Assembly: GCF_000002985.6 (NCBI RefSeq)
Contig: NC_003279.8
Coordinates: forward strand, 11,470,001 to 11,534,000
Direction: 5' to 3'
Length of the DNA stretch: 64,000 nt
DNA from: Caenorhabditis elegans
Lineage: Eukaryota; Nematoda; Chromadorea; Rhabditida; Rhabditidae
Shown here: one piece after another, positions 1,585 to 63,000 of the stretch
Numbering within the stretch: the stretch's first letter is position 1
Layout: every line of letters begins with the position of its first letter
Made by a program: the position numbers and the translations under genes
The notes under the pieces: generated by a model
The model's database searches: none
What the model was told of the DNA's origin: nothing
What the model saw: the letters and a program-made list of their open reading frames with translations, nothing else

Positions 1585-3277
1585 ACCTTGTAACTTTGAA
1601 CCTTTTTGTGATAATTTTTCTGGAATCTAATTCTCCGTCAGGCTTTTTAATTCAAAATTTTAAAATTTAGCTACAAAATACATTGATTGAGTGGCGATAA
1701 AAAGAGAAATGTGTGCGAGCAACTTTTCGGGAGAGATTAAAATTGAAGATTACCCGAAAATTTAGGACAAATTGTCTGGGAAATTTTAGAAAAAAAGGTG
1801 GCTTTTTGACCTCCGATGTGTGTTGTTTCTAACTTTGATTTGAACACCGTATCTTGTAGGCAGGCAGGCAGGCATTATTACTCATATGGAATATGGAGAG
1901 ATATCGTTTCAGAAAATTTTCAATTTTTATTTTTTCTATTTCAAAAAGATCAGACGGGCATCGATACAAAAAGAAATGAAGAAACACATATAATGAAGCT
2001 TTCAAAATACATTACTATATCTTGTGAAGCTTGGAAAAGGGTTTTGATATTTTTTCAACAAAATGATATAATTTTTGGCTAACAGTTTGCATGTGTAAAA
2101 GTACTGTTTTAACTGAAAAACGCAAATTTTACTCAAATTTTTTGAAATTCTCAGTAGCAATCGTAGATTTTTATGTTATTTTTTAAATGGAAAACATTAA
2201 AATTAATTTATTTTACAAAGTTTCTTCAAAATTGAAGTTTTTTTTTCAGAAAATCTCTCATCTTTCACCACTCCCCTTTCCCCACTCTGCTCAGCTTTTC
2301 CGATCACTTCTTATCACGAGGTCTACGCGAAATTCAGGTGCTTTTTGACGAATTCTGAAAAGTCTCATTTTTCTTGGCTAAAGTTTCATTTGGAAAATGT
2401 TTTTATATAGAATATTGAATCAAACTTTTTAGCTCCATGACCTTTGCTCGTGGATTCTGGGAAAGCTTTCCGGCATTTACCTGCAGCTTCAACAAGACTT
2501 GAGCAAGAAGCTGCCGATCCTACAAGTTTGAATGTAAGAAGTTCTACAAGCCTTTTGTTGAAAATTGTTGAAATCGTCTGAAAATGCACCAAAATATTAA
2601 ATAACCTGTAATTTAGTAATTTGAAATAAATTACCTTCAAAATACACGAATAAATGCAATTTGAAGGTTTTGTAGTCAAATTTTTTATTGCTTTATTAGA
2701 CCCAAAATTGCCTGAAAACACAGAATTTCATAATGAAATTTCTTGGAAACTGCTCAAAAAAAAAAGGTATCGCAGCTCTAAAAATAACCTAAAAATGATT
2801 AAAATTGGAAATTTGACCGATTTGTTGATGTCGCAGCGGCTGGAAATTAATTTCTTTCAAATCACTTTTTTTGAAAACGCAAGATAATTATCATGTACGG
2901 AAATTGCCGTTTTTTCCGGCAAATTCGGTAAATCAGTCTCTTGCCGGTTTGCCGATTTGCCGGAAATTTTCAATTCTTGCAGTTTGTCGGAAAAAACCTT
3001 TTTCCGTGTCGCCGAACTTGTTCATTTGAGCCTAAAAACGTGAATTTCGGAAAGATGACACAAAATATTTCAGTTTTCGTATATTTTCCTCTAAAATTGA
3101 AATCAATATCTGAAAATTTATTCCGTCGAAACAAGGGCATTCTCCAATGGATCACAATCTATTCCCGTCTGACACATTTAAATGCATTTGGGGGACACAA
3201 AAGGCGACGGAAAGTCTACGAAACAAATGTTTATTTGGAACTTTAACGTCTTTTAATATAAAACAAATGTCACAACG
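1585..3277. other. Intergenic; possible two-exon remnant and a CCGGCAAAT repeat piece
   Basis: No convincing gene. AT-rich sequence from 1585 to 2250. Two stretches at about 2250-2337 and 2433-2530 are bounded by TTTTTCAG/GTGC and TTTTTAG signals and join without a stop for about 60 codons in one frame before a TGA; I do not recognise the product. Around 2885-2975 there is a short piece of the GGCAAATTGCC-type repeat that recurs at 4.0-4.7, 40.5 and 45.7-46.5 kb. Confidence 0.4.
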
Positions 3278-5619
3278 TCAAATAGATATTCCAGAATTGA
3301 GCAATAGCTTGATGAAGTCGTGATAGATATCCTGAAACAAAAATTGTCTTTATCCACAAAATTCCAACTTAAAATTACCGATACAGTAACAATTTGCAAA
3401 GTAATATCCCCTATCCTAATTGCAATTTCAAAATCGTCCATTTTTGTCTGTGTCTCATAATAGTTTCTCAGCGCGGAGCAAACTCCTTCATAGTGCTCTT
3501 GAGCAACAATTTTCAGAGCAGTGGAGGTTTTGTGGAATTTCAGATTCCAGATGCAAAACAACTTGAAAGCAGAGTATTCATACATGTTCAATTTCAAATT
3601 TGCCAGGGAAGATCCCAATGTTGTCCTGACCTGGTGAATGAATTCAGAGAGTTTTCTGAAAAATTAGTTTAAATTGTAGCAATAAATAAAAGAAACATTT
3701 CACCTGTCAACTCCAATTTCATAGTGAGCCCCATCTGACATGGAATATTCCCTGACAGAATCCAACCAAACATTCAAAAATTGGAAGTACTTATGTAGTA
3801 CCCTGATATCTTTTTGATGTAACTTAGAAACTCCAGGGCAGTTAATGCATGCTTCCATTGCTGATCCACTTTGATGAGCAGTGATTACCATGAGCTCATT
3901 CATTGATTTAGCATGGAGAATGTTCTGGAATCAACTAGCTTTGTTATGGGACCTGCTGTAAGTAACCCCATAATTTTGGGGTTTCAGATCAGGGGAGGGC
4001 GGCAAATTGATTTGTCGACAAATTCGGCAAATTGCCGGAAATTTTTAATTCCAGCAATTTGCCGGTTTGCCGATTTGCCGGAAATTTCAATTCCGGCAAT
4101 TTGCCGATTTGCCGATTTGCCGGAAAAAATCGTTTGCCCCCACCCCTGTTTCAGATATTTCCTAACATTTTCATTACAAGCTCCTAACTTTTGATATATG
4201 CATTTTTGATGTGTTTTGAAATTGACACTAACATCAATTTGCCATGAAACTGATCGAAAATTATCTTTAAGAAACGGGGAAAAAATTTCAAAAAGGCCTA
4301 GTTTTAAGTGTTTCCGTCTTTTAAAAAATCCCTCTAAAAACTTCCGGCAAGTTGATATCCGGCAAACGGGAAAAATGGACAAATTGGCAAATTACCGAAA
4401 TTGAAAATTTCCGGCAAATCGGCAAATCGGCAACTTGCCGGAATTGAAAATTTCCGGCAAATCGGCAAACCAGCAAGTTGCCAAAAATCAAAATTTCCGG
4501 CAAATCGGCAAAGTAGCAAATTTCTGGAATTGAAAATTTCCGGCAAATCGGCAAACCGCCAATTTGCTGAAAATGAAACTTTCCGGCAAATCGGCAAACC
4601 GGCAATTTGCCGAAAATGAAAATTTCCGGCAAATCGGCAAACTACCAAATTTCTGGAATTGAAAATTTCCGGCAAATTGGCAATTTGGCGAAAATGAAAA
4701 TTCCCGGTACATTGGCAAAACGACACAACTATTTCCCTTTGAAATATAATATCTCGGCTCAATTAAAATATATCAAACAATTTTCAACTACAAAGCTATA
4801 GAAAAAATCTAGCAAATATTTTGTCAGTTGACAATTTTTCAATAAAACAAACGCCATTGAGATATAAGTCGTCAAAGTTTAATAATGGAATTTCAAATCA
4901 AACTCCTGTCAAATTGCCTACCATGTCTCACCTACCTTCGAACTATTCTTCCTCCTGTTGGCTATCGTCTTCTCCACCTCTTTCACATAAAACTGTAGCA
5001 ACTCCTGTGGATATCTCTTCAAAATTTTGCTATACTTTCCAATTGGCTTTTCAATTATTGGAGATACCAAAGGGCTCGATTCGGAGGAGCTGGAGCTGGC
5101 ACTAGATGTGCCAATGGATCCTAGAAAATTTTTAAGGATTAGGGAATAAGTAGTTTAATTTATAACTAACTTGAAGCATCCACGTTAACACATTTTTGTT
5201 TCGGAACATAATTGCTATTGATTTTTCGAATATCTGGAATAAATACCTATTTATAGAAAACCGAAAAAATGTGTATTTTTCAAGTTACTTACAATCTTTC
5301 CTCATTCCAGCTTTGAGGCAATTGTTGTAGCGACAAGCTCGGCAGGTGAATTTCTTTTCTGGAAAATCTTAGCTTAAGACATCATAATTTGATGTTAACT
5401 AACCAAAAGAAATAACACAATCATTATTTGCATTACATGTGAACTGATTCTTAACGGTCCTTCTGAAGAATGCAGCACAAGCTATGCAGCAAGAGGTTCC
5501 GAAGTGAAAGCCGGAAGTTAAGGAGTCATTGCAAATACGGCAGGGGTCTGAAATACATTGTCAAACGAATTTTAAAAAAATAGAAAAAAAATAGTCAACT
5601 AACCGTTTTTATTATCCAT
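3278..5619 (-). CDS. Nuclear hormone receptor, supplementary nematode type
   Basis: Eight exons: 5619-5604, 5547-5404, 5358-5293, 5233-5171, 5120-4936, 3924-3704, 3655-3379 and 3331-3278; predicted 341 residues. The N-terminus is a C4 zinc-finger DNA-binding domain: CRIC, then CCIACAAFFRR as the P-box region, then CNANNDC and CRACRYNNCLKAG. The hinge is Ser-rich. The second half has the nematode ligand-binding core (NCPGVSKLHQKD, KYFQFLNVWLDS, IVAQEHYEG, IRIGDITLQIVTVS). It should act as a ligand-regulated or constitutive transcription factor in the nucleus; target and ligand are unknown. It is a close paralog of the + strand receptor at 7889-9947: both share a 144-nt second exon and a 54-nt last exon. 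Intron 5 (3925-4935) is filled by GGCAAATTGCC-type repeats. Confidence 0.9.
3990..4148. mobile_element. hAT-like MITE with 8-bp target duplication
   Basis: The 159-bp element begins CAGGGGAGGGCGGCAAA and ends TTTGCCCCCACCCCTG, imperfect terminal inverted repeats. It is flanked by the direct repeat TTTCAGAT at 3982-3989 and 4149-4156. CAGGG termini with 8-bp duplications are typical of hAT elements. It lies in intron 5 of the receptor gene; the interior is GGCAAATTGCCGG motifs. No transposase. Confidence 0.7.
4335..4720. repeat. CCGGCAAATCGGCAAA tandem-like repeat array
   Basis: Repeated units of roughly 60 bp containing TTTCCGGCAAATCGGCAAA and its partial complement, in the same receptor intron. 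The open frames across it on both strands are repeat artefacts. Confidence 0.85.
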
Positions 5620-28940: not shown

Positions 28941-29646
28941 TCAAAAGTACAAAGAAATCTTATACATTCCGGTAATGGCCCTCTCGAAGATTCCATAAAA
29001 TCCCCAATAGTTCTCGTTGATACCTGGCAACAGGAATCCATCAAGATCGCGGTCTTTGCATCCGTAGATCCATGGCAAGAAGCCATCGTAGGCGTTGTTT
29101 GGTTGTGGCGTATGGTTCATGTTCTCTTCACGGCAGAAGTTCTGGAAAATAGTTAGCGCAATTTTCGACTAGAAAAAACTTATAAAGCCTAAATGCCTAT
29201 CCGGGGGTTCGAACCTGTGACCTTTTTCTCCAAGTTTGCGTCTGTTACCTACTGAGCCAACGCGATCCCTCGCCACTTATCTCAGCGGCGCCGATGGCGC
29301 AGCAGGTAAGAGAGGTGATCATGGCGCACGAGGCGGCCCCAGGTTCGAACCCTGGTTAGGTTTTTCGACGAACTCACCCTTGCCCTATCTTGAAACCAGT
29401 CCGAATACATTTCATAGTAAGTCTTGAGGCATGTGATCAACTTGCAATCCAAGTCGTACTGAAATTTTATCTAATAATTTAACAGACTCGAATTCAACTT
29501 CCAACTTTTGTGTCAATATAAAAATTTTCTGGTGGATCGATGAAGTCAATAACAGAATTCCAAATGTTTTTAATTTCTTCAAAAATATCAGCATCGACTG
29601 TTTGAAGAAAGCTGAAGACCAGAAGAAAAGCTAGAATTAAACGCAT
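28941..29646 (-). CDS. Small secreted protein with EF-hand-like DRDLDG loop
   Basis: Three exons: 29646-29506, 29458-29378 and 29141-28941; 140 residues, all junctions in phase 0. The signal peptide is MRLILAFLLVFSFLQTVDA. The mature part is rich in aromatic residues, with cysteines in LDCKLITCLKTYY, NFCREE and YGCKDRDLDG. The loop DRDLDGFLLPGI has D at positions 1, 3 and 5 and G at 6 of an EF-hand loop but Ile instead of Glu at 12, so calcium binding is doubtful. It is the only family member in the window without a visible defect. Intron 2 (29142-29377) contains a tRNA-like palindrome. Not recognised as a named family. Confidence 0.75.
29180..29372. repeat. tRNA-like palindrome 1
   Basis: Left arm is an antisense tRNA-like unit (GGGGTTCGAACC at 29206, GAGCCA); right arm is sense (GGCGCAGCAGGTAAGAGAG, GGTTCGAACCC). 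It lies in intron 2 of the small secreted gene. Confidence 0.8.
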
Positions 29647-30084
29647 GTTTTCTGTGCAACATTGAGAAGAAAAGTTTGTTTTATAGGACCTTGAGTTGCA
29701 AAGAATAAAATATATGTTTGCAGTTTTGGAATTTTGAATAAAGATCAGTGGTAAACCGAATTCTCTGCAAAAAGAAATACGAAACCATTTTCTTAGAGTG
29801 TTGTATTTTGATCTTTTATATCATGTATCGATGCGTCATGACTCGATGCACCATGACCCAATGGTCCATAAAACTTGGTTTCTAAGTTCCCGAACAAGGC
29901 AACAATGTATTAATAGACTTTCAAAGGTCAGAACTAGACTATTTTCCGCATAATCTTCGCACTTTCTTCTAACAAAAAGAGTTTGATGTTTCAAGTATCC
30001 TCGAAAATTGAATCCAACGGCAATTGTTGGTCTAAATGATCTGGTTTGATGGACTGGGCAGGTGTTGAATAAGCCTTCAAGCTA

Positions 30085-30175
30085 GCTAAGCCAAATATGC
30101 GTTACTGGGATTCGAACTTTGGTTGCTTGTACCAAGTTGACACCTCTTACCGACTGCGCCAATTTTCGTAGCACA
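30085..30175 (-). repeat. tRNA-like half unit (antisense)
   Basis: GGGATTCGAACTTTGG and CCGACTGCGCCA: the complement of B-box and A-box-like sequences. No clear right arm. Confidence 0.6.
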
Positions 30176-30307
30176 GTAGCACTTAAAATTTACTTGTTGA
30201 GAAACAACTCAATTTTCTCTCTCTAAATGGTCTTGTTTAATGAAAAATTGGATTTCCAGGCCAATCTCTTCAAACTGAACAAGCTAAACATAAAGCTTCA
30301 GTCCAAC

Positions 30308-30452
30308 AAAGCCTAATGGGCCTTCCCGGGGTTCGAACTTTGGTTGTTTTCATCAAGTTGGTGCCTATTACCGACTGCGCCAGTTAATATGGCGCAGTGG
30401 CTAATGGAGGCAAACTCGGAAAAAGAGGTCTCTGGTTCAAACTTCTCAAAAA
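30308..30452. repeat. tRNA-like palindrome 2
   Basis: Antisense GGGGTTCGAACTTTGG ... CCGACTGCGCCA, then sense ATGGCGCAGTGGCTAATGGAG ... CTGGTTCAAAC. Confidence 0.75.
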
Positions 30453-30814
30453 AATTGATTTGAAGGAATGAATTCTTCGTCCAAAGTGCGCTGATTCGCA
30501 ACTTTTCATCTACAAATCCGGGAATCCTTGACAAAAAGTTGATTAAAACTGGTAACGGATCCACACCCTCCTCTCGGCAGAACGGGAGGAGGCTGTAGAC
30601 CCCTCTATTGTTTGAAGAAAGTTGGCTGAAGGGAAGGATAATCGGCTTTGGCAGGCACCTTTCTCCCGATTAACCTGGATTCCTCAGGGCTTGCTAGGCT
30701 TAGAAGCCGCCTTCATTTCTTACTTCAGTGACTTTGGAGAGTCAAAAAGCTTTGCGGTTTTGCCAATTCTCTTTTTTTACACAGTTCTCGAACTCCACGT
30801 TTCCCCACCAATAA

Positions 30815-30985
30815 AACCTAAACACCACCCCTGGGGCTCGAACCCCCGACATTTTGCACCAAGTCCATCCGTGTTAGCCACTGCGCCATGCCTTGCCAGG
30901 ACACCTGCCGTCAGCTAGCTCAGTGGCTAACGCAGAGGAACATGGAGCAATAGGTCACTGGTTCGACCCCCGGGTTGGATATTGA
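30815..30985. repeat. tRNA-like palindrome 3
   Basis: Antisense GGGGCTCGAACCCCCGAC ... TTAGCCACTGCGCCA, then sense TAGCTCAGTGGCTAACGCAG ... TGGTTCGACCCCCGGG. The A box resembles a true tRNA (TAGCTCAGTGG). Confidence 0.8.
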
Positions 30986-31419
30986 CTTTTTTTCTGGCTG
31001 TAAATCATATAAAAACTTTCTTTCTAGCTATTCTCCCCTTCTAGTATGTTCGGAAGTATGTCTACACATACTTCATCATGACAAACCAAAGAGGTGTCAT
31101 CTTCATTGTCGCTCAATTAAATTCTCCTTCTCCTCATGTTCCTCCTTTCCATTCAGTTCTTACTTTATCCCCCAATTCCCTTTGTTATATACATATTGTG
31201 CGATATCGGGCAAAGTTCTCCGCGACCGGAGGGGGGATAATTTCGATTTCGGGGGAGACGCCTGCTTCTTCCGGTCACTTTCCCCACACAAACTTTCTCG
31301 GCTTTCGCAGGAAAATTGCTTTTGCACTTCTTTTTCGCACTTTTAGATTGATCCTTTGTGACTTTTGATGGGCTTTTATTGATTTAGATCGTATAGATTC
31401 TAGCTTAAAGACCAAGTAA

Positions 31420-31600
31420 AAATTATTTACCCTACCAGGGGCTCGAACCTCTGATCCTTTGTACCAAAGTCATCTGCTTTACCGGCTGCGCCATTCGCCA
31501 ACCTGCCTCACCCAGGGTTTGGCTTGAACGGCGCATCCGGTAACAGAGACAAACTCGGTGAAATAGGTCACGGGTTCGAGCCCAGAGAGCCATATTTATC
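31420..31600. repeat. tRNA-like palindrome 4
   Basis: Antisense GGGGCTCGAACCTCTGATC ... ACCGGCTGCGCCA, then sense GGCGCATCCGGTAACAGAG ... GGGTTCGAGCCC. It sits just upstream of the PAN-domain gene. Confidence 0.8.
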
Positions 31601-31611
31601 TTTTATCACCT

Positions 31612-31624
31612 CTAATTTTTTCAG
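31612..31624 (+). promoter_or_regulatory. Likely trans-splice acceptor of the PAN-domain gene
   Basis: TTTTTTCAG precedes the start codon at 31638 by 13 bases, with no upstream exon needed. This is the usual position of a spliced-leader acceptor in nematodes. Confidence 0.5.
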
Positions 31625-31637
31625 AGCAACATTTTTC

Positions 31638-34600
31638 ATGCTTCTCCTCTACCTTTTCTACTTTTTGAGCCCATCTTGGGCTCAAAATCTCACTGATATG
31701 ATTGCTCAAAACCCGCTGCTCGCAAAGATGTCAATGTTCCAAGAGTATCAGGAAAACTCCACAATCCCATTGCCATCCTCTCCGGAGGATAGTGATGAGG
31801 AGGATTTTATCAAGAAAATGGTTAGTTTAGGTTTTTTGAAAGTAGAATTTTTGAATTTATCGCATAGAAAAACCTAAATGCCGCTCCGGGGGTTCGAACC
31901 TGTGACCTCTTGCTCCACTGGCCTCTCTCTTACCGCCTGAGCCACTGTGTGCCGCGCGGGCGCACCACACCGCGTCACCAGTGGCGCAGTCGGTAAGAGA
32001 GATGCCTATGGCGCCAAAAATATTGTAAAATTCGATTTTTGCATTAAAAATAATACAAAATCAACTCATTTTTTCCAGAGCACAAAACGTTCTTCATCCC
32101 GTGAGGCCGTATCCGACAATTTTGATCAGCGCTACCACCAAATGAATAGGTCGCTTTTCGATCAAGCAGATCTGGAAATCGGAGATCTCGACTATCGGGA
32201 AATGACAGTGACGTCATCATCAGTGTTCCCAAGTACCTCTACAGATGACGTGGATCTTCAGAGAGCACTGGTGGATGAAGCTTCAGAGTTTGTAACTGAA
32301 TTCCAGCCGGAATCTGAATCTGAATCTGAATCCACATCACCATTTTCTGCAAGTGCTTCAATTTTTGCGACACCTATTGCTACTTCAACAGAGGGTTTTG
32401 AGAAAAACTCATTTTCTAGAAGCTCCCCATACTTCAAAGCTTTTCCAACGGCAGCTACGTCACAATTTGTATCTTCACATGTTGCCACGTCACAAAATTC
32501 ATTTGCCACGTCATTCAATGACGTCACCGCTCCCGACTTTTCAACTGAAAACCCATCAACTCCAATTATTCTATCACAGACAACGTCCGACGAAGAGGAG
32601 AAGTTCTTCACGGAGCCCGAGGATTCGGACACTGACGTAGAAGATATTTCGTCGAAAGCAGGGATGCCTACGTCATCTTTCCAAGGTACAAGCCTGGCTA
32701 AGCTCTCAGAGCTCAAGCCTGAAGAGTTTGAGTTCCACCAGATTCAGAAGAAGAAGCAGGATGAGAACGAGGTGGTGCAGTTTAATGGTGAGTTGTCGAT
32801 GAAAATAAAGTGAAAAATCGAATTCCTTGCATAGAAAAACCTATAAACATGTTACGGGGGTCGAACCCGAGTCCTGTGCGCCATAGCCATCTCTGTTAGC
32901 CATTGTGCCACGGTGTACAGCGCAACCCACTGGAGGTGTACCGCGTGGCGCAGTGGCTAAGGGGGTTGGCTAAGACTCAGAAGGCCGCGAGTTCGACCCC
33001 CACCTAGTGTGTTGGGTTTTTTACACCGCGAATTTCCCATTTTTCTAGGCCGCTACAGTGTCTCCGCCACGAAATACTACGTAGACAACCGCATCGACGG
33101 CGAGCACTACGAAAACTCGCCTTCTGTAGAAATCGAGGATACGATTCAGGAAAATGGTGTGGAGGAAGTGGTAAGTACTGTAGATAGAGAAAAGTTACAG
33201 TATTTCGTTGCAGGACCCATTCGCCGTGGAGCGGGAAATGCGGAAGATGGCGAGGATGCACGCGGCGAAGACTCGAACTTTTGATGATCCTTTGAAGGGG
33301 TTGGAGGTACTGAGGGTTATTGTATTCTTTACAAAATTGTGATAATAAAAACATTTACAGTTTCTAATGGAGAAGGACCAAGAACGCCGCCGGCTTTCAG
33401 ATGAGCTCCCGGACACTGAGCTGGTGTCAATGGAGACTGACAAAAATGGGAAAACATTTGAGCAGAGACAAACTACGCATGAAGGAAGGAAGGTAGGTGT
33501 CTGCAAGAACGAATTTTTTGAGAAAAAGTACATTTTTGCCCATTTTCCAACGTTTCAAATGTAAAATCCTAATTCACAGCCCCTGAAAACCTCTAAACGA
33601 CGCCAGAGACTCGAACCCTTGACTTTCAAAGCCATAGCCACCTCTCTTACCGCCTGCGCCATGGTGCATCAAGCTGCCAGCGCGCCTGTGGCGCAGCCGG
33701 TAAGAGGGGAGGTCCTGGCTCTGAAGGTCAAAGGTTCGAACCCCCGTGGCTTTTATAGGTTTTGCAAGACGAGGAAAACAATTTTCACACTTTAAAATAT
33801 GAAATAGTTAGTTGAAAATAGGATTTTTAGATTTCTAGCGAGAAAATTTTCTTACGCCTTCAAACTTTTCAGACAATTGTCAACCTATACAACAAGAATC
33901 TCTATGGTCATGACCTTATGAGATTCCCTGGCGCAATTTTCGACGATAAAATCGATGAACCACGGCAAAAATCTGACAAACGGCGGACGGTGGCTTCACG
34001 GATAGTATTGTCGAGTGATGAGTTCTCCCGTAAGTTGATTTTCCCTCTAAAACGTTGAATGTATTTCTTTGATTGTTGAAAATATCAATTTTCCACACTG
34101 AAAAAGATAAAGACCACGTTGGGGGCTCGAACCCCGGACCTCGTGCGCCATATGCATCTCTCTTAGCCACTGAACCAGCCACTGTAGTGGAGAGGACGCG
34201 CACTTGCGGAAAGTGGCGCAGTCGGTAAGAGATGTGACTTTGGCGCAGAAGGTCAGGGGTTCGATTCCCGGTGAGCGGATTTGGGTTTTTCTGTGTGAAA
34301 CGCTTGGATTTTTAACCTTTTCGGTGGGTTTCCACATCGAAAATCGAAAAATAAATTTCAGATATTAATCCAACATCTCCACGGCTCCGGAAAGTGGTCG
34401 CCGGGGTGACAACAAATGTGAAAACCGACAAAAATATGTTTGTAGATGCAAAGATTCAGAAGACTACGGTAACTTAAAGAAAAATTCCGAAAAAAAATCA
34501 ATTATTTTCCAGGAAGACGTCGAATCAGTGTGCTACAACTCGAAGAAAAACACCGCAATCACAAAAATTCGCTCATTTGAAACCGATGATAATTTGTCAA

Positions 34601-34948
34601 AGTTGGAGTGTCTCATAAAATGTTCCAGGTACAGTAACTTCGCGGCGAGGCCTCGAAATATTTAAATTTTTGAAACCAGCTTGAGCCGCCGACGTTATAA
34701 TTTTTCAAAAAGCAAACCTTCTTGCCAGAACGCCTGCCTGCCTAGCCACTACCTACTCCATGCCACTTGCCACGTGTGCAATGTATGAGGAAATCAAGAA
34801 TCTAGCTGGAAATACGATAAGAAGCCAGGGGCATAGTTTGCATAGAAAACTGTCGAAAACTACGGCGAGATGTGTCAGAATGTTTGTGTCGAGGGAAGTT
34901 TTTGGAGATTTGGATAAGGATTCAGAGGAGGAAGAGTTTGAAGAGTGA
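31638..34948 (+). CDS. Secreted Ser-rich protein with PAN-like domain (first part)
   Basis: Nine exons: 31638-31820, 32079-32787, 33049-33170, 33214-33306, 33361-33492, 33873-34029, 34362-34468, 34513-34628 and 34729-34948. The start gives a signal peptide (MLLLYLFYFLSPSWA). Residues 62-300 are Ser/Thr/Asp/Glu-rich, low in structure. The last exons form a PAN/apple-like cysteine pattern (SVCYN, LECLIKCSRTPACLATTYS, ATCAMYEEI). Exon 9 either runs into a TGA at 34946 (612 residues) or splices at GA/GTGAGT at 34944. The exons at 35692-36983 encode two more PAN-like units and have no start of their own, so I think both parts form one gene, but the phases at the 34944-35692 junction do not match directly. 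Four of its introns, plus the one after exon 9, carry a tRNA-like palindrome. Confidence 0.75.
31868..32025. repeat. tRNA-like palindrome 5 (intron 1 of PAN gene)
   Basis: Begins at CATAGAAAAACCTAAATG; antisense GGGGGTTCGAACCTGTGACC ... CCGCCTGAGCCA, then sense AGTGGCGCAGTCGGTAAGAG. The right arm is truncated before its B box. Confidence 0.8.
32829..33025. repeat. tRNA-like palindrome 6 (intron 2)
   Basis: Outer ends GCATAGAAAAACCTATAAAC and GTTGGGTTTTTT. Antisense GGGGTCGAACCCGAGTCC ... TTAGCCATTGTGCCA; sense GTGGCGCAGTGGCTAAGGGG ... GAGTTCGACCCCC. Confidence 0.85.
33580..33765. repeat. tRNA-like palindrome 7 (intron 5)
   Basis: Antisense GAGACTCGAACCCTTGAC ... CCGCCTGCGCCA; sense TGGCGCAGCCGGTAAGAGGG ... 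AGGTTCGAACCCCCG; outer AAAACCTCTAAAC and TATAGGTTTTGC. Confidence 0.85.
34095..34300. repeat. tRNA-like palindrome 8 (intron 6)
   Basis: Antisense GGGGGCTCGAACCCCGGACC ... TTAGCCACTGAACCA; sense GTGGCGCAGTCGGTAAGAGA ... GGGGTTCGATTCCCGG; outer right TTGGGTTTTTCTGTG. Confidence 0.85.
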
Positions 34949-35064
34949 GTTGTTTGATTTTCTTTTTCCTTTCAGTAAAAACTATGGAAAAATTCTGGGA
35001 AAAATCTGAAAATTCAATTTTGAACTAGCTATTTCACCTTTGAAAGTGTGAAAATCGTTTTTCA

Positions 35065-35260
35065 CCCCTTGCAAAACCTATAGAAGGCATCGGGGACTCG
35101 AACCCCCGACCTTCAGATCCGCAGCCTGCCCTCTTACCGGCTGCGCCAAGGTGCGCCGCCAATTCGGTGCACCATGGCGCAACCGGTAGGAGAGATGGCT
35201 TGTGGTCTGGAGGTCAGGGGTTCGATCCCGCGAGCCTGTATTTAGCTTTTCTGGGGTGGA
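35065..35260. repeat. tRNA-like palindrome 9 (intron after exon 9)
   Basis: Antisense GGGGACTCGAACCCCCGACC ... CCGGCTGCGCCA; sense ATGGCGCAACCGGTAGGAGA ... GGGTTCGATCCCG; outer GCAAAACCTATAG and TAGCTTTTCTG. Confidence 0.85.
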
Positions 35261-35550
35261 GAGTTCGATTTTTAAACTCTAAAAATGAAAAAATTAGTGG
35301 AAAATCGAGATTTTCGAAATTTTTACCTTATTTTCACGTGAGGATATTGAATTTCGTCTAATTCTGTTTAAATTTGCCGCCGTTCCATTCACAAATTCCA
35401 TAAACACACTCTGCAAACAGAGAAAACAAACCAATTCAGTTCTCCCACCTTCCTGCGTCTCGTCGAAAAAGACTCCAGTGTCTCATCGTCTCTTCTTTTT
35501 TCTCAACGCCGTAAGTTTCCTGTTAGGCCTTGCATTGCAAGTTTTCCATC

Positions 35551-35622
35551 GGGGGTATAGCTCAGTGGCAGAGCATTCGACTGCAGATCGAGAGGTCCCT
35601 GGTTCAACTCCGGGTGCCCCCT
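35551..35622 (+). tRNA. tRNA-Cys (GCA)
   Basis: A 72-base cloverleaf: acceptor GGGGGTA pairs with TGCCCCC; D arm GCTC...GAGC; anticodon stem TTCGA/TCGAG around the loop CTGCAGA, anticodon GCA; T arm CCTGG-TTCAACT-CCGGG; discriminator T. A T-rich stretch follows. Unlike the palindromic tRNA-like units around it, it has a full acceptor stem and no mirror copy. It lies between the two parts of the PAN-domain gene, in the same orientation. Confidence 0.95.
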
Positions 35623-35691
35623 AAATAATTTTGCAATTTTTCATTTTTTGAAATGTTTTTTTTTTTGAAATATAAGTTTCCCAAGTTCCAG

Positions 35692-36983
35692 CAAAGTGTC
35701 CCGATGGTCAGGATGTAATTTTTGTGCGGTCTAATGACGTGGAATCCAGTAATAATCACCAAAACTATGTGGAAATCACCGAAGACGATTGCGTTTTTGC
35801 GTGTCTCACAAATTCCCGTCCAGGCGGGGGAGCTTCAGATTGCACAGCTCTTGAGTATGACAAGACACGTGGATTCTGCTACTTGATGACGTCACCGCCG
35901 GCAGATGACGTGGCAATGACACCTAGGCCAAGGAACCCAGTGACTAGTTATGAGAAGATTTGCATACAGAGTTGGTTTGCGTTTTCTCATTTTAGTTTTT
36001 AATTTTCCCCTTAAAACCTCAATTTTCGAATTCCCCTGTTCAGCAGCTTCAAAATAAGTATAATCATGACCCACTTCGGAACAAAATCAATATTAGCTCC
36101 GCCCCCTCCCTAGCTACCGTACCCTTCGTGGTGGGACCCACCGAATTATTTAACTTGATGGAACCTAGTCATGTGATATGCTGTTAAAAAGCTCTTGGCG
36201 AGCTGAATTCAAATTTGTAACTTAAATTTGAAAAAAGTAAAACTTTTGTGCAGAATCCTCGGCAAACAAGTGCTCAGGAGGCCAGCCAATTCGCTACCGT
36301 CAAAAAGTGCTCATTGGGCATCTTGTGGATGCTCATTCAGTGGGCTCTGCTGCGGAATGTATTGATTTATGTATAGAGAAGCACATAATTGGATGTGTTA
36401 GTGTTATGTTCTATGCGAAGGTGAGAAATGGCAACCGGATGAACTGAGGCTTTTTTTTTTTGCAGGAAACCACTCTGAACTGCATTTTGAATGATTCTAC
36501 AAATCTGGAGGATCCCGCTTCATTCTTTGATGAAACCGCCACTATCGTTGACTTTTTCTCTATTCAGGATTGCCTAGGGATTCGGGAAGTCAACAGAAGG
36601 GCTAAGAAACGGTGATTAGTGTCTTTTTCAGGCTTATGAAATAGGAAAAATTGCATTTCTCGTATAGAAAAACCTAAATAGCCTTATTGGGGTCGAACCC
36701 GTGACCCTCTGCGACATAGCCACCCCTCTTAGCCACTGCGCCACCGGGGGCAGCTCGACCCGGCGCGCGTTGCGCAACGGCTAAGAGGGGTGGCTATGGC
36801 GCAGAAGGGCGCGAGTTCGACCCCCGAGAAGGTTTTATAAGCTTTTCTATGCGAGGAAATCGATTTTTCACTTCATTTTCTTGTGAAAGTAACCTGTAAT
36901 CCTACAATTAAATTGTTTCCAGAAAAATCCAAAATCGAATTGAAAAATTGGCGAGATTACGGAGGAAAATGGCACGAATGTAG
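35692..36983 (+). CDS. PAN-domain protein, C-terminal part
   Basis: Exons 35692-35970, 36254-36420, 36466-36611 and 36923-36983; about 216 residues to a TAG. Two PAN/apple-like units: KCPDGQDVIF, EDDCVFACLTNSR, SDCTALEYD, GFCYLMT, KICIQ; then NKCSGGQPIRY, AAECIDLCIEKHIIGCVSV, LNCILN, QDCLG. These cysteine-bridged modules occur in extracellular and cuticle-associated nematode proteins and bind proteins or sugars. The C-terminus is basic (RIEKLARLRRKMARM). No start codon fits, so it is most likely the 3' end of the gene starting at 31638. A candidate linking exon is 35413-35512, but I could not prove its phase. Confidence 0.7.
36657..36853. repeat. tRNA-like palindrome 10 (last intron of PAN gene)
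   Basis: The clearest copy: outer ends TCGTATAGAAAAACCTA and GCTTTTCTATGCGA; antisense GGGGTCGAACCCGTGACC ... TTAGCCACTGCGCCA; sense TTGCGCAACGGCTAAGAGGG ... GAGTTCGACCCCCGAG. The two arms would pair over some 80 bases. Confidence 0.9.
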
Positions 36984-38194
36984 ATTTTACTAAACAAAAA
37001 TTAATTTTTTTTTCCGGAAAAAATTGCATATGACAATATTGATATCAACAGCTGAAATCGGGTCCTGATTTATTAATTTTTTGTAATATTTTTTCCTAAA
37101 TAATATTAAGTGCGTAGTTATGTGCGTTTTATGTTTTTATTTTCTAATAATAAATTTTTAAAAAACTATGAAGAAGTAAACGAGAAAATTTATTGGAAAA
37201 ATTTCGGAGACAAAAAATTCGAAAAAAATTTTTTTTGACATTTTTTTCGAAAATTATATTCTTCCGATTCTTTCAAACTTGTGAACATTTTTATAACAAT
37301 GTAACCCGCCATATCTTCAAATTGAGCAGTTTTATATAGGAAAATGTGTTGGTCACCATGGCAACCGCCCGAAATTGTATACGGATATAAGAATTTGGGA
37401 CACAAGGGATTTGTACTGATTTGATTACTTTTTTATCAGTTTAGTACATTTTTTTAACGTTTTACTATTTATAATTGTTTTAAAATTACAAAAATATTAA
37501 ATAATTTTTTTTCCGAAATGGAAAAAAAATTTGAACAATTTTTTAGAATATTCTTTTTTCTTCAAAAAATTATCTTTTCAAGGTCTTCCTTGTCTCGATG
37601 ATTCTTTGTAATATTGAAATTCTTCATTATTTTTTAGTAATATTAAAGATCTTGGGATTAAGACTCATTTTTAATAACATTTACATCGGAAATGTGGGAG
37701 TTCTGGACTTTTTTTTGCTCATTTTTTCCGGTTTGTAGAGTTCTAGAAATATACTAGGTGGTCGGATTTCTATTTCGGATTTATCTTATTTGAATATTAA
37801 AAAGTTAAAATTACAAAAATAATTTCGATTAAAAAATTTGATATAATTTAGTTAAATTTATCTATTAAAAACGGAGTTTGCAAATTTTCCACAGAAAGAA
37901 ACATATTTGTACTCTCTGGGGCTCAAACCTGTGACCTCCACAGGTGATTCGCCACGGACGCATAATGCTTCAGACGCGGTTCGCGCACGCTTTGAGAAAG
38001 TACACGAAAACACTGGCATAGTGGGGGCACTATGCGCGTTTTTGCGAACAGACGTGAGACGTGAACATGAGATTATGCGCGCATTGCGAAAACAATTTAT
38101 GCTTCCTTTTTTCACTTATTTCAGCTGAAAAATTTTAAAATTTAACTTCAGTTCTTGTATAAGCCACCCCACCCCAAGACTTGGAAAGGATTTT

Positions 38195-38285
38195 CTGTTA
38201 CCATCCGGAGTCGAACCACTGACCTGTTTCTTCGAGTTCTGAAAGTTTACCTGTTGACCAATCCCGCGCGCACGTTCGTTAGTTG
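38195..38285 (-). repeat. tRNA-like half unit (antisense)
   Basis: CCGGAGTCGAACCACTGACC ... ACCTGTTGACCAA, the complement of a B-box/A-box pair. No mirror arm. Confidence 0.55.
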
Positions 38286-39289
38286 CAGATCGATTTAAGT
38301 AGTTATCTAGGGCATCTCACTGCTAGTTATCTCGCGCATCTAGCTCCATCATTCTGATACCTGACCCAAATTTATCTAAAATAGTTCTCAAGGCGATCCA
38401 CCGTACCAGGTTTTCAAGAAAATGATCCGTTTTCATGTTATGCTAGTGGCCGAGTCTTCTCCCACTTTGCAAAAACCGCTTGTGACAAAGGTTCTTTGCA
38501 AAGATCTTTGGAGATAAAGTATCCAAAGTGACAAAGTGGGGTGTACCTTGGTGGGGCTAGGATCAATGGTGACAACTTTTTTCAACTAGTTCAACTAGAT
38601 ATGTATTTTTCAACTAATTTGTGTTCATATTTCACAACTTTTTAAATGCAATTTTCAATGGATTTTCGAATTCACTCACAATTGAATGTATTAACAATTT
38701 TCTTTTGGGAAAAGGGTGTAAAATGTCCTACTAGCTTGGAATACTATAAGGCTCATTTTATGATCTGATTATTCTGACTTACGATCTCGATATTCAGCTC
38801 AGAAGGCTCATAAAAGATAAGGGTCCTCTTCTAATCTGATTCCTCCGATCTTCCGATTTTGATGATAAGGGTTGAAAAAATTATGGTTGAAAAACAATTT
38901 TTTTTGGAAATTTTATTCAAAAACTGTTCAACTTTATAAAAACACCACAATTTTGGTAGTTTTTACAAGTTTGGACTTTTATGTTGCATTTTGAGTTAAA
39001 CTATGACTTAAATTAGAATTGAATGAGCATATAGACATCTTACTTTCAAAGACTTATAACTCTGTTGGCGTTTAAATTAATAAAATGAAGTGAGCTCCGA
39101 AAGATGACCAAAAAATTCTAGATCTGTTCTCAACAATATCTCAGTTCTCGATAAAGGTGAGAAAATGCTTACAACTATGAAAACGTTTATTGTTTTAAGC
39201 TTGACTATGTTGTAATTGACGGCTTTTTGATACCTCGCCTCTAAAATGAGATACATCCTTTTTAAGACATGAGGTTTTATTGTTCAGTG

Positions 39290-39465
39290 TCCCAAAGAAT
39301 TCCGTTTTGACTCATCGAATCCTGCGCCGAGGGCATCTCTCTTACCCACTGCGCCACCGGGCATCTTCGCTGTTGAACGGGCGCTTTCACCGTGGCGCAG
39401 TGGGTAAAGGATATGCCTATAGCGTAGAAGGCCACAGTTTCAAACCCTGGGTTGATTTTTATGTT
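39290..39465. repeat. tRNA-like palindrome 11
   Basis: Antisense TTACCCACTGCGCCACCGG; sense CGTGGCGCAGTGGGTAAAGG ... CAGTTTCAAACCCTGG. A further half copy (GGCGCAGAAGGTCACAAG ... TTCGACTCCC) is at 39545-39590. Confidence 0.75.
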
Positions 39466-40065
39466 TTTCTAAACTTTTTATTCAACTTGACACCTCTAAA
39501 AGTGATGAATATCTGAAGAAAACCCCCGTTCTCTCAAAATTCCCAACCTATGGCGCAGAAGGTCACAAGTTCGACTCCCAGAAGCGGCAGCTAATTTTTC
39601 CAAGCCGTGAGAACTCTAATAATTTCATTTTTAGATTGTTTTCCGTATAGTAGTAAAAAATTAGTTTCGCCGATCACAGTTTTCTGCGACGAATAGTAAA
39701 TATTTGTTCAGACATCAAAAAATTGGATTTAGGGCTACAAGTTTATTGAACTAGATCTGTAAAGCTTAATCGTCATGGAAAAGTGCAAAGTTTTGAATTT
39801 TCTTTTCTTGAAAATCCCTATCTGTGAAGCCATAGCTATATATAAATTTTTAAAAATTGACTCCCCTCCGCCCATTCTTTTCCTATTTCATGCCCCATCA
39901 ACTAGACACACAGAAGCCAAGCATTTTTATTTTGAAAAAAATATTATATTTTATAGCCAGATGGTGTGGATTTTTTGACCAAAATTTAAAAAAAGATGTT
40001 CCAAAATTTATTTTTTTTTTTCAGATTTCGCCGACTTTTTTTTTGTGGGATTTTCCCAAAACCAG

Positions 40066-60000: not shown

Positions 60001-63000
60001 AGAAATCTGTAGCCTGAAACCCCCAAACTAGTTTCTATAAGGTTGAAACCCAAATTTTCGACTTCTCCAGAGCTAGAGCTTTCACTTAAGTATAATCATG
60101 ACTAGATTCGGAAGATTTTAAAATTTAGGTCTGCCATGCGCCTTTAAACTACAGTAACCTCTGCGATTTTCGCGTCAGGACCTTGAGAACTCTTGGCCTA
60201 GTGGCTAACAGACATGCCTAGCAATTTCAACACCGGGGTTCGAGCCCCCACGCTGGTGGAAATTTTTCTTCTTTTTTCCTCACCTGATTAATAATCTGAA
60301 GGGGTGATTGCACGGGCTCCATGTGCTCGGCGCCTCCACCGTGCTCTGCCGAGAGCTTTGCAAGATGTGCAGTCATTTGAGAGGTGTCTGCGTTCATTTG
60401 CTCCGTGGCCTGGTTGGTGACCTTTGCCGGGGGACATGTAAGAGGGATGCCTTCTTCGGCCACCTGGAATCGGAAAATTAAGTAGATTTTTGAGTTCAAG
60501 CTCTTAGAGCAGAGCGGGGGAAAGAGCTAGAAAAAAGTTGCCAACTAAAAAAATGCAAAAAAATATGTGCAGATTATTTTGATTGTTAAAAATTTTCTGA
60601 TATCTCTAATGTCTGTGGAGATATAGTACGAAGTAAATTGACAACATTTTTTGCTCATCGATTTTGTTATGCTCAACCTAGCGTAACTTTTGAACGGAGC
60701 AAGATATAAAAAAGTTGTCAACTAACAGAACGTGCAAAAATATTTTTTAATCATTTTGTTAGTTGACAGCTTTTTGATATCTTGACTCACAACTGAGATA
60801 CAGGACTTTTAGCTTTAGCTACCTCCCTTTATTTTTTCAACCGGCTTCAAGAAATTCAAACTTTTATAACTTTTTTACGGTAAACGTTATCAAAAAATTT
60901 TCAACTATTGAAATGTGCACAAATATGTAACAAATATTTTTGAGTTAACAAAATTTTGATATCTCCAATTTCTCCAGACTTACATCAATCGGCAAATACC
61001 CCTTCTGCCGTTTCGACGCCCGGAACTTATTCCGAATCATTTTCGCGAAATCCCTTGCGTCATCGGATGACGTAGTTTTTTCACAGTACTCCTGCATTGG
61101 ATGATTTGTTCGATGACTTTTTGCAGTTCTCTGACTGAAGAAACAATTCTGGCAGAGGTCACAGTTGAAGCAGGTGAGGCATCGGTAACGGATGCCGATG
61201 ATTGGGAACATTTTGCACACGTTGCATTTGGACTAAAATTGTTTTAGTTTTTAAATAAAACATGAAACTGGTTGTTTTGCAATTAAAATTATTTTTACAG
61301 AATATCAAAATATCGAATTTAAGCCAAGTTATGGGTCTTCAAAGTTGATGGCCTAGAAATCCAAGTTTAAAAATTTCTAGGCCACCAAGAGTTAAGTAGC
61401 CAAAACAAGTGCAAAATTTCTAGACAATGTTATTGGTCTTTAAACCAGTGAAAACGATCAAAGTTGGTGGTCTAGAAATCCAAATTTAAAAATTTCTAGG
61501 CCAGAAAAAATTAAAAAACCAAAAAATTTGCAGAATCTCAAGATCATGTTTTTGGTTCTTGAAACAGTTTAACATATTGATTTTGGGCCAAGTTACGGAT
61601 ATTTGAAGTTTGTGGCCTAGAAATTTCCTAGGCCAACAACTGAAACTGGGCATAACTTGGCTGAAAATTGGAATTTTTTTGTGATTCCAAAAGTGACAGC
61701 ACTACGTTGCAATTTTGCATCATTTTAGGTTATTTAACTTTATGTGGCCTAGAAATTGCAAATTTGGATTTCTAGGCCATCAACTTAAACCGGCATAACT
61801 AGGCTCAAAATCAATATTTTTCAGTTTTCTCAAAACTCCTAGAACTGCTTTAAAATTATCTATCATTATGCCTCTCTTTGGCCTAGAAATTGCAAATTTT
61901 GATTTCTAGGACACCGGCTCAAAATCGATATTTCTCAGCGATAAGGCTTACCGCATGCTTTGTGCTTTCGGAGATGACTAATCGATGCATGACAGCTAGC
62001 CAGACTATTGATTGAGGTTCCTGAAAAACAAAAATTTGAAAGGAAAAACTTTTGAAAAAATCACCTTCTTGACCCAATCGATAAAAGCGCCTTCCGATAT
62101 TGTTGGCGCCAATCGTACAGTTTCGAAGCACGATCGGACCGATGGCTCCACATTGGTACCTCCAAATGCGGCGGATTCACCGACCAAACGAGGAATCTGA
62201 GAGTCAAAAAAATCGATAATTCACCAAAAATCGATTTTTTTTAAAAACCAAAATGAATTGTTACCTAAAAATAAATCAATAAAACACTTACGTGGATAAG
62301 ATCATATAAAAGCAATGCAATTTGTTTTTGGGTCGCATGACCGTCCTGGGAAACTAATTTGAAAAGATCTGGAAATTAAAAACCGATTTCAAGGTACAGG
62401 GAGTCAGAAAAAAAGCGTACATCTATATTTTTCCTCTAATGGAATGTTCGAGAATACGATCATGGCAATTTTAAAGGAGAGAACACGCATTATTCCGTCG
62501 CGGGATCTGCAAAAATATGTTAGTTAGTTTTAAAAAAAAATCGATAATTTTGTCGAAAGGCGGAATTTTTATCGGAAATCCATAAATTTGCCGGAAATAT
62601 ATGATTTTCTGGAAAATCGATAATTTCTCATAAAGTCGATAAATTTCACAAAAATCGATAATTTTGATGAAAACCAATAATTTTCACAAAAATCGATAAT
62701 TTTCACAAAAATCAATAATTTTCACAAAAATCAATAATTTTCACAAAAATCGATAATTTTCACAAAAATCAATAATTTTCACAAAAATCCATCATTTTGA
62801 CGAAAATCAATAATTTTCACAAAAATCAATAATTTTCACAAAAATCCATCATTTTGACGAAAATCAATAATTTTGACGAAAATCAATAATTTTCACAAAA
62901 CTCGATAATTTTCACAAAAATCAATAATTTTCACAAAAATCCATCATTTTGACGAAAATCAATAATTTTGACGAAAATCCATCATTTTGACGCAAATCAA

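Follow-up and report, generated by a model that had tools for sequence, protein, structure and literature searches.

Head-to-head pairs of tRNA-promoter-like modules in Caenorhabditis elegans as candidate TFIIIC docking elements

Introduction

Extra-TFIIIC sites are known from yeast to human and are suspected boundary elements; in C. elegans, they were reported to be bound by TFIIIC without Pol III and TBP in embryos, and 214 of 504 overlap the CeRep3 "tRNA pseudogenes" (PMC6950938). According to the same report, Box A is present in 90% and Box B in 87% of these sites, which are enriched in introns, form dense clusters with a median interval of 1207 bp, and are over-represented on five chromosome arms: I right, II left, III left, IV left, and V right (PMC6950938). 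The mechanism that keeps TBP and Pol III off some TFIIIC sites was introduced there as unknown, and Stutzman et al. raised the possibility that extra-TFIIIC sites serve to mark or insulate the heterochromatin of lamina-attached chromosome arms (PMC6950938). Intronic elements with A and B boxes that are independent of the host gene were also described in the Pol III-made mir-1829 family; in the mir-1829b locus, which is Pol III-transcribed, Box A is predicted to pair into a hairpin with a second, degenerate one (PMC12157501). Long inverted repeats were reported to be actively maintained in Caenorhabditis (PMC1803023).

The near-palindromic units described here lie in a 64,000-nucleotide stretch of C. 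elegans DNA (the window). They resemble extra-TFIIIC sites in combining an A and a B box, in their dense local clusters, in their enrichment in introns, and in the five chromosome arms on which A-box matches of the family cluster. A head-to-head layout is not described in the main text of the extra-TFIIIC report in palindromic, inverted, hairpin, or orientation wording (PMC6950938). In description, the units are also like CeRep3, an interspersed tRNA-like repeat of suspected tRNA pseudogenes. In the mir-1829 family, the boxes are followed downstream by a transcribed miRNA hairpin (PMC12157501), whereas here two full modules, each with an A box, a B box, and a T-run, are the arms themselves. 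The same three elements are shared with tRNA genes, but the units have no acceptor stem; two arms elsewhere in the genome do pass ARAGORN.

Results and discussion

Units in the window

An arm model built on 19 arms from the window gave 28 matches there. Twenty-four scored at least 29.4 bits, all within 29179-39604, and the remaining four scored 12.8-22.9 bits, one of them being a tRNA-Cys gene. Of the high-scoring arms, 22 form 11 divergent units spanning 29179-39471, and seven of these are intronic, six in a PAN-domain gene and one in a neighbour gene. The original prediction of about eleven palindromic units with opposed tRNA-like arms was confirmed by the arm-model matches and by pairing, and the arms were alignable over most of their length rather than being unrelated chance tRNA fragments. 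The features of the cluster were as follows, with the A-A gap being the distance in nucleotides between the two A boxes of a unit.

29179..29365, strand., unit 1: in a 236-nt intron of the neighbour gene (minus strand); A-A gap 35
30089..30161, strand -, unpaired single module (arm-model match)
30303..30442, strand., unit 2: degenerate; intergenic; A-A gap 7
30809..30995, strand., unit 3: intergenic; A-A gap 27
31413..31608, strand., unit 4: directly upstream of the PAN gene; A-A gap 35
31864..32017, strand., unit 5: intron 1 (31821-32078); right arm ends after the A-box half; A-A gap 37
32831..33023, strand., unit 6: intron 2 (32788-33048); A-A gap 35
33583..33768, strand., unit 7: intron 5 (33493-33872); A-A gap 27
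34098..34294, strand., unit 8: intron 6 (34030-34361); A-A gap 36
35068..35254, strand., unit 9: intron after exon 9 (34945-35691); A-A gap 26
35694..36420, strand +, PAN-domain coding pieces of the host gene: PAN_1 matches at 35694-35975 and 36256-36420
36665..36850, strand., unit 10: last intron (36612-36922); A-A gap 26
39320..39471, strand., unit 11: downstream of the PAN gene; truncated left arm; A-A gap 36
39548..39604, strand +, partial module, B-box half (arm-model match)

Module architecture

Each unit consists of two homologous, divergent modules in which an A box is followed by a B box, at tRNA-like spacing, and then by a T-run. Among the 19 window arms, the invariant or near-invariant columns sit in the A box, around the B box, and in the T-run. 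The same three blocks hold most of the information in 124 paired arms, a set in which A-box conservation was favoured because the cluster loci were selected through A-box matches; certain single columns between the boxes were also conserved, and most other positions were freer to vary. Box B was in place in 106 of the 124 paired arms. In 88% of 166 arms, a T-run of at least four started about 20 nt past the B box, within positions 70-79; the share was 0-3% over positions 0-59 and 12-49% past position 80, in the AT-rich flank. Such conservation of the T-run would be odd in an element that is never transcribed.

The acceptor stem was absent, with a mean of 2.88 of 7 pairs against 2.63 in shifted controls (148 of 168 arms, 20 having been removed by an anchor or length filter). 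This count, together with the alignment, bore out the earlier description of A- and B-box-like promoters lacking that stem. ARAGORN called two arms as tRNA across 20 cluster loci and none in the window, where the sole tRNA gene reported was tRNA-Cys. At a permissive threshold, Rfam returned, in addition to tRNA-Cys, 22 matches in the window, all below their gathering scores and mostly of miRNA type, which were read as chance. With their A and B boxes, the modules have the internal Pol III promoter of a tRNA-derived SINE, but a transcript would end before any A-rich or LINE-related 3' tail because of the T-run.

Head-to-head layout and core

Divergent orientation was found in 55 of 57 neighbouring arm pairs no more than 80 nt apart among the 150 best matches, and in 23 of 34 neighbouring pairs no more than 90 nt apart in hold-out loci. 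The A boxes of a unit are separated by 7-52 nt, mostly across a GC-rich core. Core GC content was 67% (60 units with a gap above 20), compared with 28% upstream of 43 single modules, 31 of which came from three loci, and with 45% for the DNA preceding 18 real tRNA genes; hold-out cores reached 66% (18 units). The motif GCGC occurred in 52 of the 60 cores (21.6 in letter shuffles) and in 14 of the 18 hold-out cores (6.6 in letter shuffles). Among the papers listed by literature searches, with older CeRep3 literature outside their scope, there was no palindromic tRNA-like worm repeat and no head-to-head extra-TFIIIC site.

The A-A gaps of the 62 discovery units fell into classes of 7, 26-27, 34-37, 44-48, and 51-52 nt, with one of 40, and had a best period of 9.9-10.5 bp that none of 5000 smooth-null draws reached; the period stayed beyond the null when each core homology group was represented by a single unit (n=33). 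Hold-out loci were evaluated with 22 units, after removal of a 118-nt pair and of one member of a near-identical pair of units, and with 30 or 34 units, the added ones including III:1981604, inside a discovery locus; III:1005606, a unit with a gap of 36, was left out of the hold-out phasing set. Null draws (of 20000) reaching the observed value at 9.9-10.1 bp numbered 1629-2749 (n=22), 412-842 (n=30), and 1780-2687 (n=34), and at 10.5 bp 4014-4754, 1052-1662, and 3226-4087, respectively. Helical phasing of the gap at about 10 bp, strong in the discovery units, was not confirmed in the hold-out loci and is unproven.

The units as probable TFIIIC docking elements

The combination of boxes, layout, and chromosomal distribution suggested that the units are TFIIIC docking elements of the extra-TFIIIC/CeRep3 kind in a head-to-head form, a reading to which we assign a probability of roughly 0.6. 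Each module would bind one TFIIIC. In other species, TFIIIB, which includes TBP, lands upstream of the A box to recruit Pol III. Two TFIIICs would fit on a unit and TFIIIB would not, because the landing zone upstream of each A box is the core or the partner module. By blocking TFIIIB, and hence Pol III, the paired layout could make the unit a silent TFIIIC anchor, which may mark or insulate heterochromatin in lamina-attached arms, and the RNA hairpin would be a side effect of having homologous arms that face opposite ways.

The more specific proposal, that back-to-back TFIIICs around the GC-rich core cover each other's TFIIIB zone and so create a transcription-free TFIIIC anchor, is tentative, and we regard it as less likely than not. 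Such mutual cover would be unneeded if the single and tandem modules of the family were equally Pol III-free. Since mir-1829b is Pol III-transcribed, placing a weak second Box A opposite Box A is not enough on its own to stop Pol III (PMC12157501). If the proposal is true, it would provide a sequence-level reason for the lasting absence of TBP and Pol III from some TFIIIC sites, and the layout would bear on the question of what separates extra-TFIIIC sites from tRNA genes with the same boxes. Were worm sites mostly head-to-head with a GC-rich core, and the Pol III-bound ones single, the difference would be written in the DNA. The intronic clusters in ordinary genes offer compact test loci.

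Alternatively, Pol III might transcribe the modules outward, yielding short RNAs of about 80-90 nt that stop at the T-run, possibly in tissues or stages missed by sampling embryos. The A box, B box, and T-run are all conserved, and the mir-1829 family demonstrates that intronic A/B-box Pol III units are real in C. elegans, mir-1829b even having the predicted hairpin between its Box A and a degenerate second one (PMC12157501). However, published extra-TFIIIC sites were without Pol III and TBP in embryos (PMC6950938), and paired modules have a GC-rich core and a partner module upstream, so that we consider outward transcription unlikely.

A family across the chromosome arms

The units are part of a larger family, with hundreds of modules in the genome. 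The A-box pattern TGGCGCAGTNGGTAAGAG, with up to two mismatches, had 263 matches in the genome against 6 for the reversed pattern, and the B-box context had 217 against 0 for the control. Of the exact A-box matches, 33 of 34 lay on the five extra-TFIIIC-rich arms named in the Introduction, each taken as the terminal 30% of its chromosome, and the complete list of 34 had none on contig 6; of the first 100 listed among the 263 matches with mismatches, 90 lay on the same five arms, against an expectation of 24.7% from their share of the genome. These limits of 30% were our own choice rather than those published. Listed copies were locally clustered. The family also includes single and tandem modules, which accounted for 44 of the 168 arms found in the cluster loci and for the majority of the 137 hold-out arms, some of which may have partners beyond the ends of the short stretches used there. 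The cores of the 62 units formed 33 homology groups. Some neighbouring units are inverted duplicates of each other, with reverse-complementary cores within three loci (L017, L025, and L026).

The 33 core groups and the inverted duplicates speak for dead relics: an inverted tRNA-pseudogene dimer would have been duplicated locally, the copies would have no function today, and their boxes would have stayed alike since only working-promoter copies once spread. Uniform decay, however, would not leave the A box, B box, and T-run far more conserved than most of the remainder, and sites of a similar kind were reported to be TFIIIC-occupied (PMC6950938), which makes this explanation improbable.

Folding and arm pairing

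The expectation that the units can fold held in a folding run, all 11 doing so better than their shuffles (z from -2.5 to -12.5; 60 dinucleotide shuffles each). Arm likeness was compared in 50 of the 62 units, those in clusters of at least three (8 clusters), and arms of one unit resembled each other no more than did arms paired at random within a cluster (0.680 vs. 0.678; 787 of 2000 shuffles reached the value), nor was there a whole-arm excess in a second test (256 of 2000). The stretch between the boxes showed a marginal own-arm excess over all clusters (66 of 2000; second test, 57 of 2000). In the window alone, one of the eight clusters, own-arm likeness was clearly above chance (15 of 2000, uncorrected for the number of clusters), and own arms folded better than swapped ones, with 76 of 4000 permutations giving a value as low; when the 39 units of the seven other clusters were pooled, 3593 of 4000 did so. 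Homogenisation of the arms, as originally suggested, is thus consistent with the window but did not hold as a general rule. Unit-specific hairpins were likewise rejected as a general feature, as own arms paired no better than swapped arms outside the window. Another improbable reading is a foldback element retained, with arm-to-arm correction, for the hairpin that it forms as RNA or DNA (intronic dsRNA, an ADAR/Dicer substrate, or a cruciform), for which the folding of all units, the window's own-arm matching, the marginal between-box excess, and the active maintenance of long inverted repeats (PMC1803023) are outweighed by the equality of swapped arms in seven clusters, the lack of whole-arm excess over all clusters, and conservation that peaks in the promoter boxes and T-run and not along the stem.

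Outer ends

The outer ends that had been proposed as shared were rare in the genome: the 16-mer TTTAGGTTTTTCTATG, which contains the 14-mer first noticed, had 29 matches with up to one mismatch against 18 for the control, and three of the 29 fell in the window cluster. For this outer 16-mer, to which the terminal-repeat comparison was confined, no family-wide terminal inverted repeat was found, which argues against an inverted MITE with these ends as its shared terminal repeat. The units show no clear boundary of the kind at which a target-site duplication would lie.

Host genes and introns

An exon model of the PAN gene was made by hand (31638-36983). Exons 1-8 gave a single open frame when joined, and from exon 9 onward no consistent frame was obtained (0 solutions). 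The model agreed with the reported placement of one unit each in introns 1, 2, 5, and 6, the intron after exon 9, and the last intron, which are 258, 261, 380, 332, 747, and 311 nt long, respectively; the other six introns (43, 54, 44, 51, 279, and 45 nt) were without any unit. The unit assigned to the small neighbour gene was found in its intron at 29142-29377. The intron after exon 9 also holds the complete tRNA-Cys gene, alongside unit 9.

Paired promoter modules in the window

The genome searched comprised 100,286,401 bases in 7 contigs, with the window at G000:C1:11470001-11534000. Matches to the arm model in the window defined the following cluster:

29179-39604: eleven units, each nearly palindromic, plus two pieces without a partner

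The original prediction of about eleven such units was recovered, and unit-to-unit intervals ranged from 451 to 2655 bp. In 11/11 units the left arm pointed left and the right arm pointed right, which leaves two promoter modules facing away from a short core. The predicted intron placement was also found: six units lay in the PAN-domain gene, one per intron, and one more in an intron of the small secreted neighbour. Units occurred in 6/7 PAN-domain gene introns longer than 250 nt and in none of the five introns of 43-54 nt, indicating that the units explain most long introns. A weak isolated module (22.9 bits, 60194-60267) lay far from the cluster.

Alignment of nineteen window arms gave the A box TGGCGCAGTNGGTAAGAG and the B box GGTTCGA, with its TTC placed 46 nt beyond the first base of the A box, which is the tRNA spacing, and a T-run near arm position 73, some 20 nt beyond the B box. 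The A box, the surroundings of the B box and the T-run held the invariant or nearly invariant columns. Across 124 paired arms most information lay in the same three blocks, with some single between-box columns conserved too; A-box conservation in the cluster loci is partly selection bias, because these loci were picked by A-box matches, a choice that leaves B-box and T-run conservation unaffected. T-runs of at least 4 started at positions 70-79 in 88% of 166 arms, compared with 0-3% at positions 0-59; past 80, where the flank is AT-rich, the share was 12-49%. No acceptor stem was found in the 148 arms in which one was sought (2.88 of 7 pairs versus 2.63 in a shifted control), in agreement with the expected A and B boxes lacking such a stem. 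Within 20 cluster loci, ARAGORN accepted two arms as tRNA.

Relatedness and layout across the family

The copies were related rather than chance tRNA fragments: allowing up to 2 mismatches, the A-box pattern had 263 genome matches versus 6 for the reversed pattern, the B-box context had 217 versus 0 in the control, and nineteen arms could be aligned. Half-boxes in divergent orientation, 22-52 nt apart, were found at 33 genome places versus 0 in the control; three were second matches of units already counted, leaving 30, and those at III 256-280 kb matched an inner half-box of units with a true gap of 7. Four further variants gave 17, 7, 12 and 2 places, each versus 0.

Searching the 20 cluster loci and the window with the arm model yielded 178 matches. 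Among the best 150, 110 were in divergent pairs, and neighbours within 80 nt were divergent in 55/57 cases (one plus-plus, one minus-minus). Adding 18 weaker matches gave 168 arms, forming 62 units and 44 unpaired arms. The hold-out contained 137 arms in 60 short stretches, where 34 neighbouring pairs lay within 90 nt: 23 of these were divergent, 3 were convergent and the others shared an orientation (6 plus-plus, 2 minus-minus). Single and tandem modules were common there, chiefly at V 19.35-19.62 Mb and II 2.7-3.3 Mb. The head-to-head pair is thus one family form among others. The family also takes another architecture, with tandem same-orientation modules spaced roughly 120 to 165 bp apart, at loci L072 (V 19.52 Mb), L074 (V 19.56 Mb), L068 (V 17.77 Mb) and L091 (II 2.96 Mb). 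Units with only 7 nt between A boxes (L054, L055 and L056 at III 0.27-0.28 Mb, window 30382, and L020 at 3500) are a tight class, distinct from gaps of 24-52 nt. Locus L028 (V 20.118-20.128 Mb) held nine paired units within about 7 kb, at intervals of 562-1469 bp.

A GC-rich core between the A boxes

The cores of the 62 units made up 33 homology groups. Core GC was 67% in the 60 units with a gap above 20 nt and 66% in 18 hold-out units, compared with upstream GC of 28% at 43 single modules (31 of them from three loci) and 45% at 18 real tRNA genes, a convenience sample. DNA flanking the units on the outside was 30% GC, indicating that single modules simply have background DNA in their AT-rich upstream stretch and that what stands out is the GC-rich core. 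GCGC was present in 52/60 cores versus 21.6 in letter shuffles, and in 14/18 hold-out cores versus 6.6. Some neighbouring units had exact or near reverse-complement cores (L017 4074/4384, L025 4311/5086, L026 4064/5333), the product of local inverted duplication or flipping of entire units.

Folding and arm homogenisation

The window units folded well, as anticipated (z -2.5 to -12.5). The further proposal, that arms are homogenised and pairing is kept within each copy, failed in general, with a clear excess in the window alone. Over 50 units in 8 clusters, own-unit arm likeness was 0.680 versus 0.678 for neighbouring-unit arms, a difference reached by 787/2000 shuffles (256/2000 in a first version), with a marginal own-unit excess in the between-box stretch (66/2000; first version 57/2000). 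In the other seven clusters, own arms had no folding advantage over swapped arms (39 units, 3593/4000 as low). Two homologous modules set back to back therefore account for the palindrome, with no need for selection for pairing. In the window, own arms were more alike (0.583 versus 0.544, 15/2000, an uncorrected figure for one of 8 clusters) and folded better than swapped arms (76/4000); something local may be going on in the PAN-domain gene.

Likely identity and a possible mechanism

Exact A-box matches fell in 33/34 cases within the terminal 30% of five chromosome arms (I right, II left, III left, IV left, V right), with none on contig 6, which we take to be X. Among the best 100 of 263 mismatch places, 90 lay on those five arm ends (24.7% expected). 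A-box matches come clustered, making the counts non-independent; as these 100 were ranked first by mismatch, with contig as the second key, and end within contig 5, X is informed by exact matches only. According to Stutzman et al. 2020 (PMC6950938), 504 sites in C. elegans embryos are bound by TFIIIC without Pol III or TBP, with Box A in 90% and Box B in 87%. These extra-TFIIIC sites are over-represented in introns, form dense clusters (median interval 1207 bp) and are enriched on the same five chromosome arms as named above; CeRep3, suspected tRNA pseudogenes, overlaps 214/504. The units parallel the boxes, intron location, clustering and five arms reported there, and on this likeness the window units are most likely extra-TFIIIC sites or of the same kind. 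The element kind is already known, and CeRep3 may have been described earlier as an inverted repeat. A word search of the main text of PMC6950938 returned no mention of the head-to-head layout, GC-rich core or single-module contrast, nor were these found in the literature searched, which covered few subscription journals.

The units combine this layout with conserved boxes, a T-run and a GC-rich core. In other species, TFIIIC bound to the A and B boxes sets TFIIIB in place ahead of the start site, tens of bp upstream of the A box. Where two A boxes are separated by 7-52 nt, the TFIIIB zone would fall within the GC-rich core or the partner module, which would make TFIIIB loading impossible and leave the unit a TFIIIC anchor. 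Exclusion of TFIIIB by layout is thus a candidate DNA-level reason for Pol III-free TFIIIC binding, the mechanisms of which remain unknown according to PMC6950938. Counting against exclusion, the family includes single modules that may likewise be Pol III-free, and the kept T-runs hint at transcription, present or past. The Pol III-transcribed mir-1829b locus, as described in PMC12157501, has a second, degenerate Box A and a predicted hairpin with Box A, suggesting that a weak opposed Box A alone is no bar to transcription.

The PAN-domain gene intron of unit 9 (35068-35254) also held a complete tRNA-Cys(GCA) gene (35551-35622), 297 bp downstream of the unit, so that an apparently intact tRNA gene stands beside a probable silent TFIIIC site.
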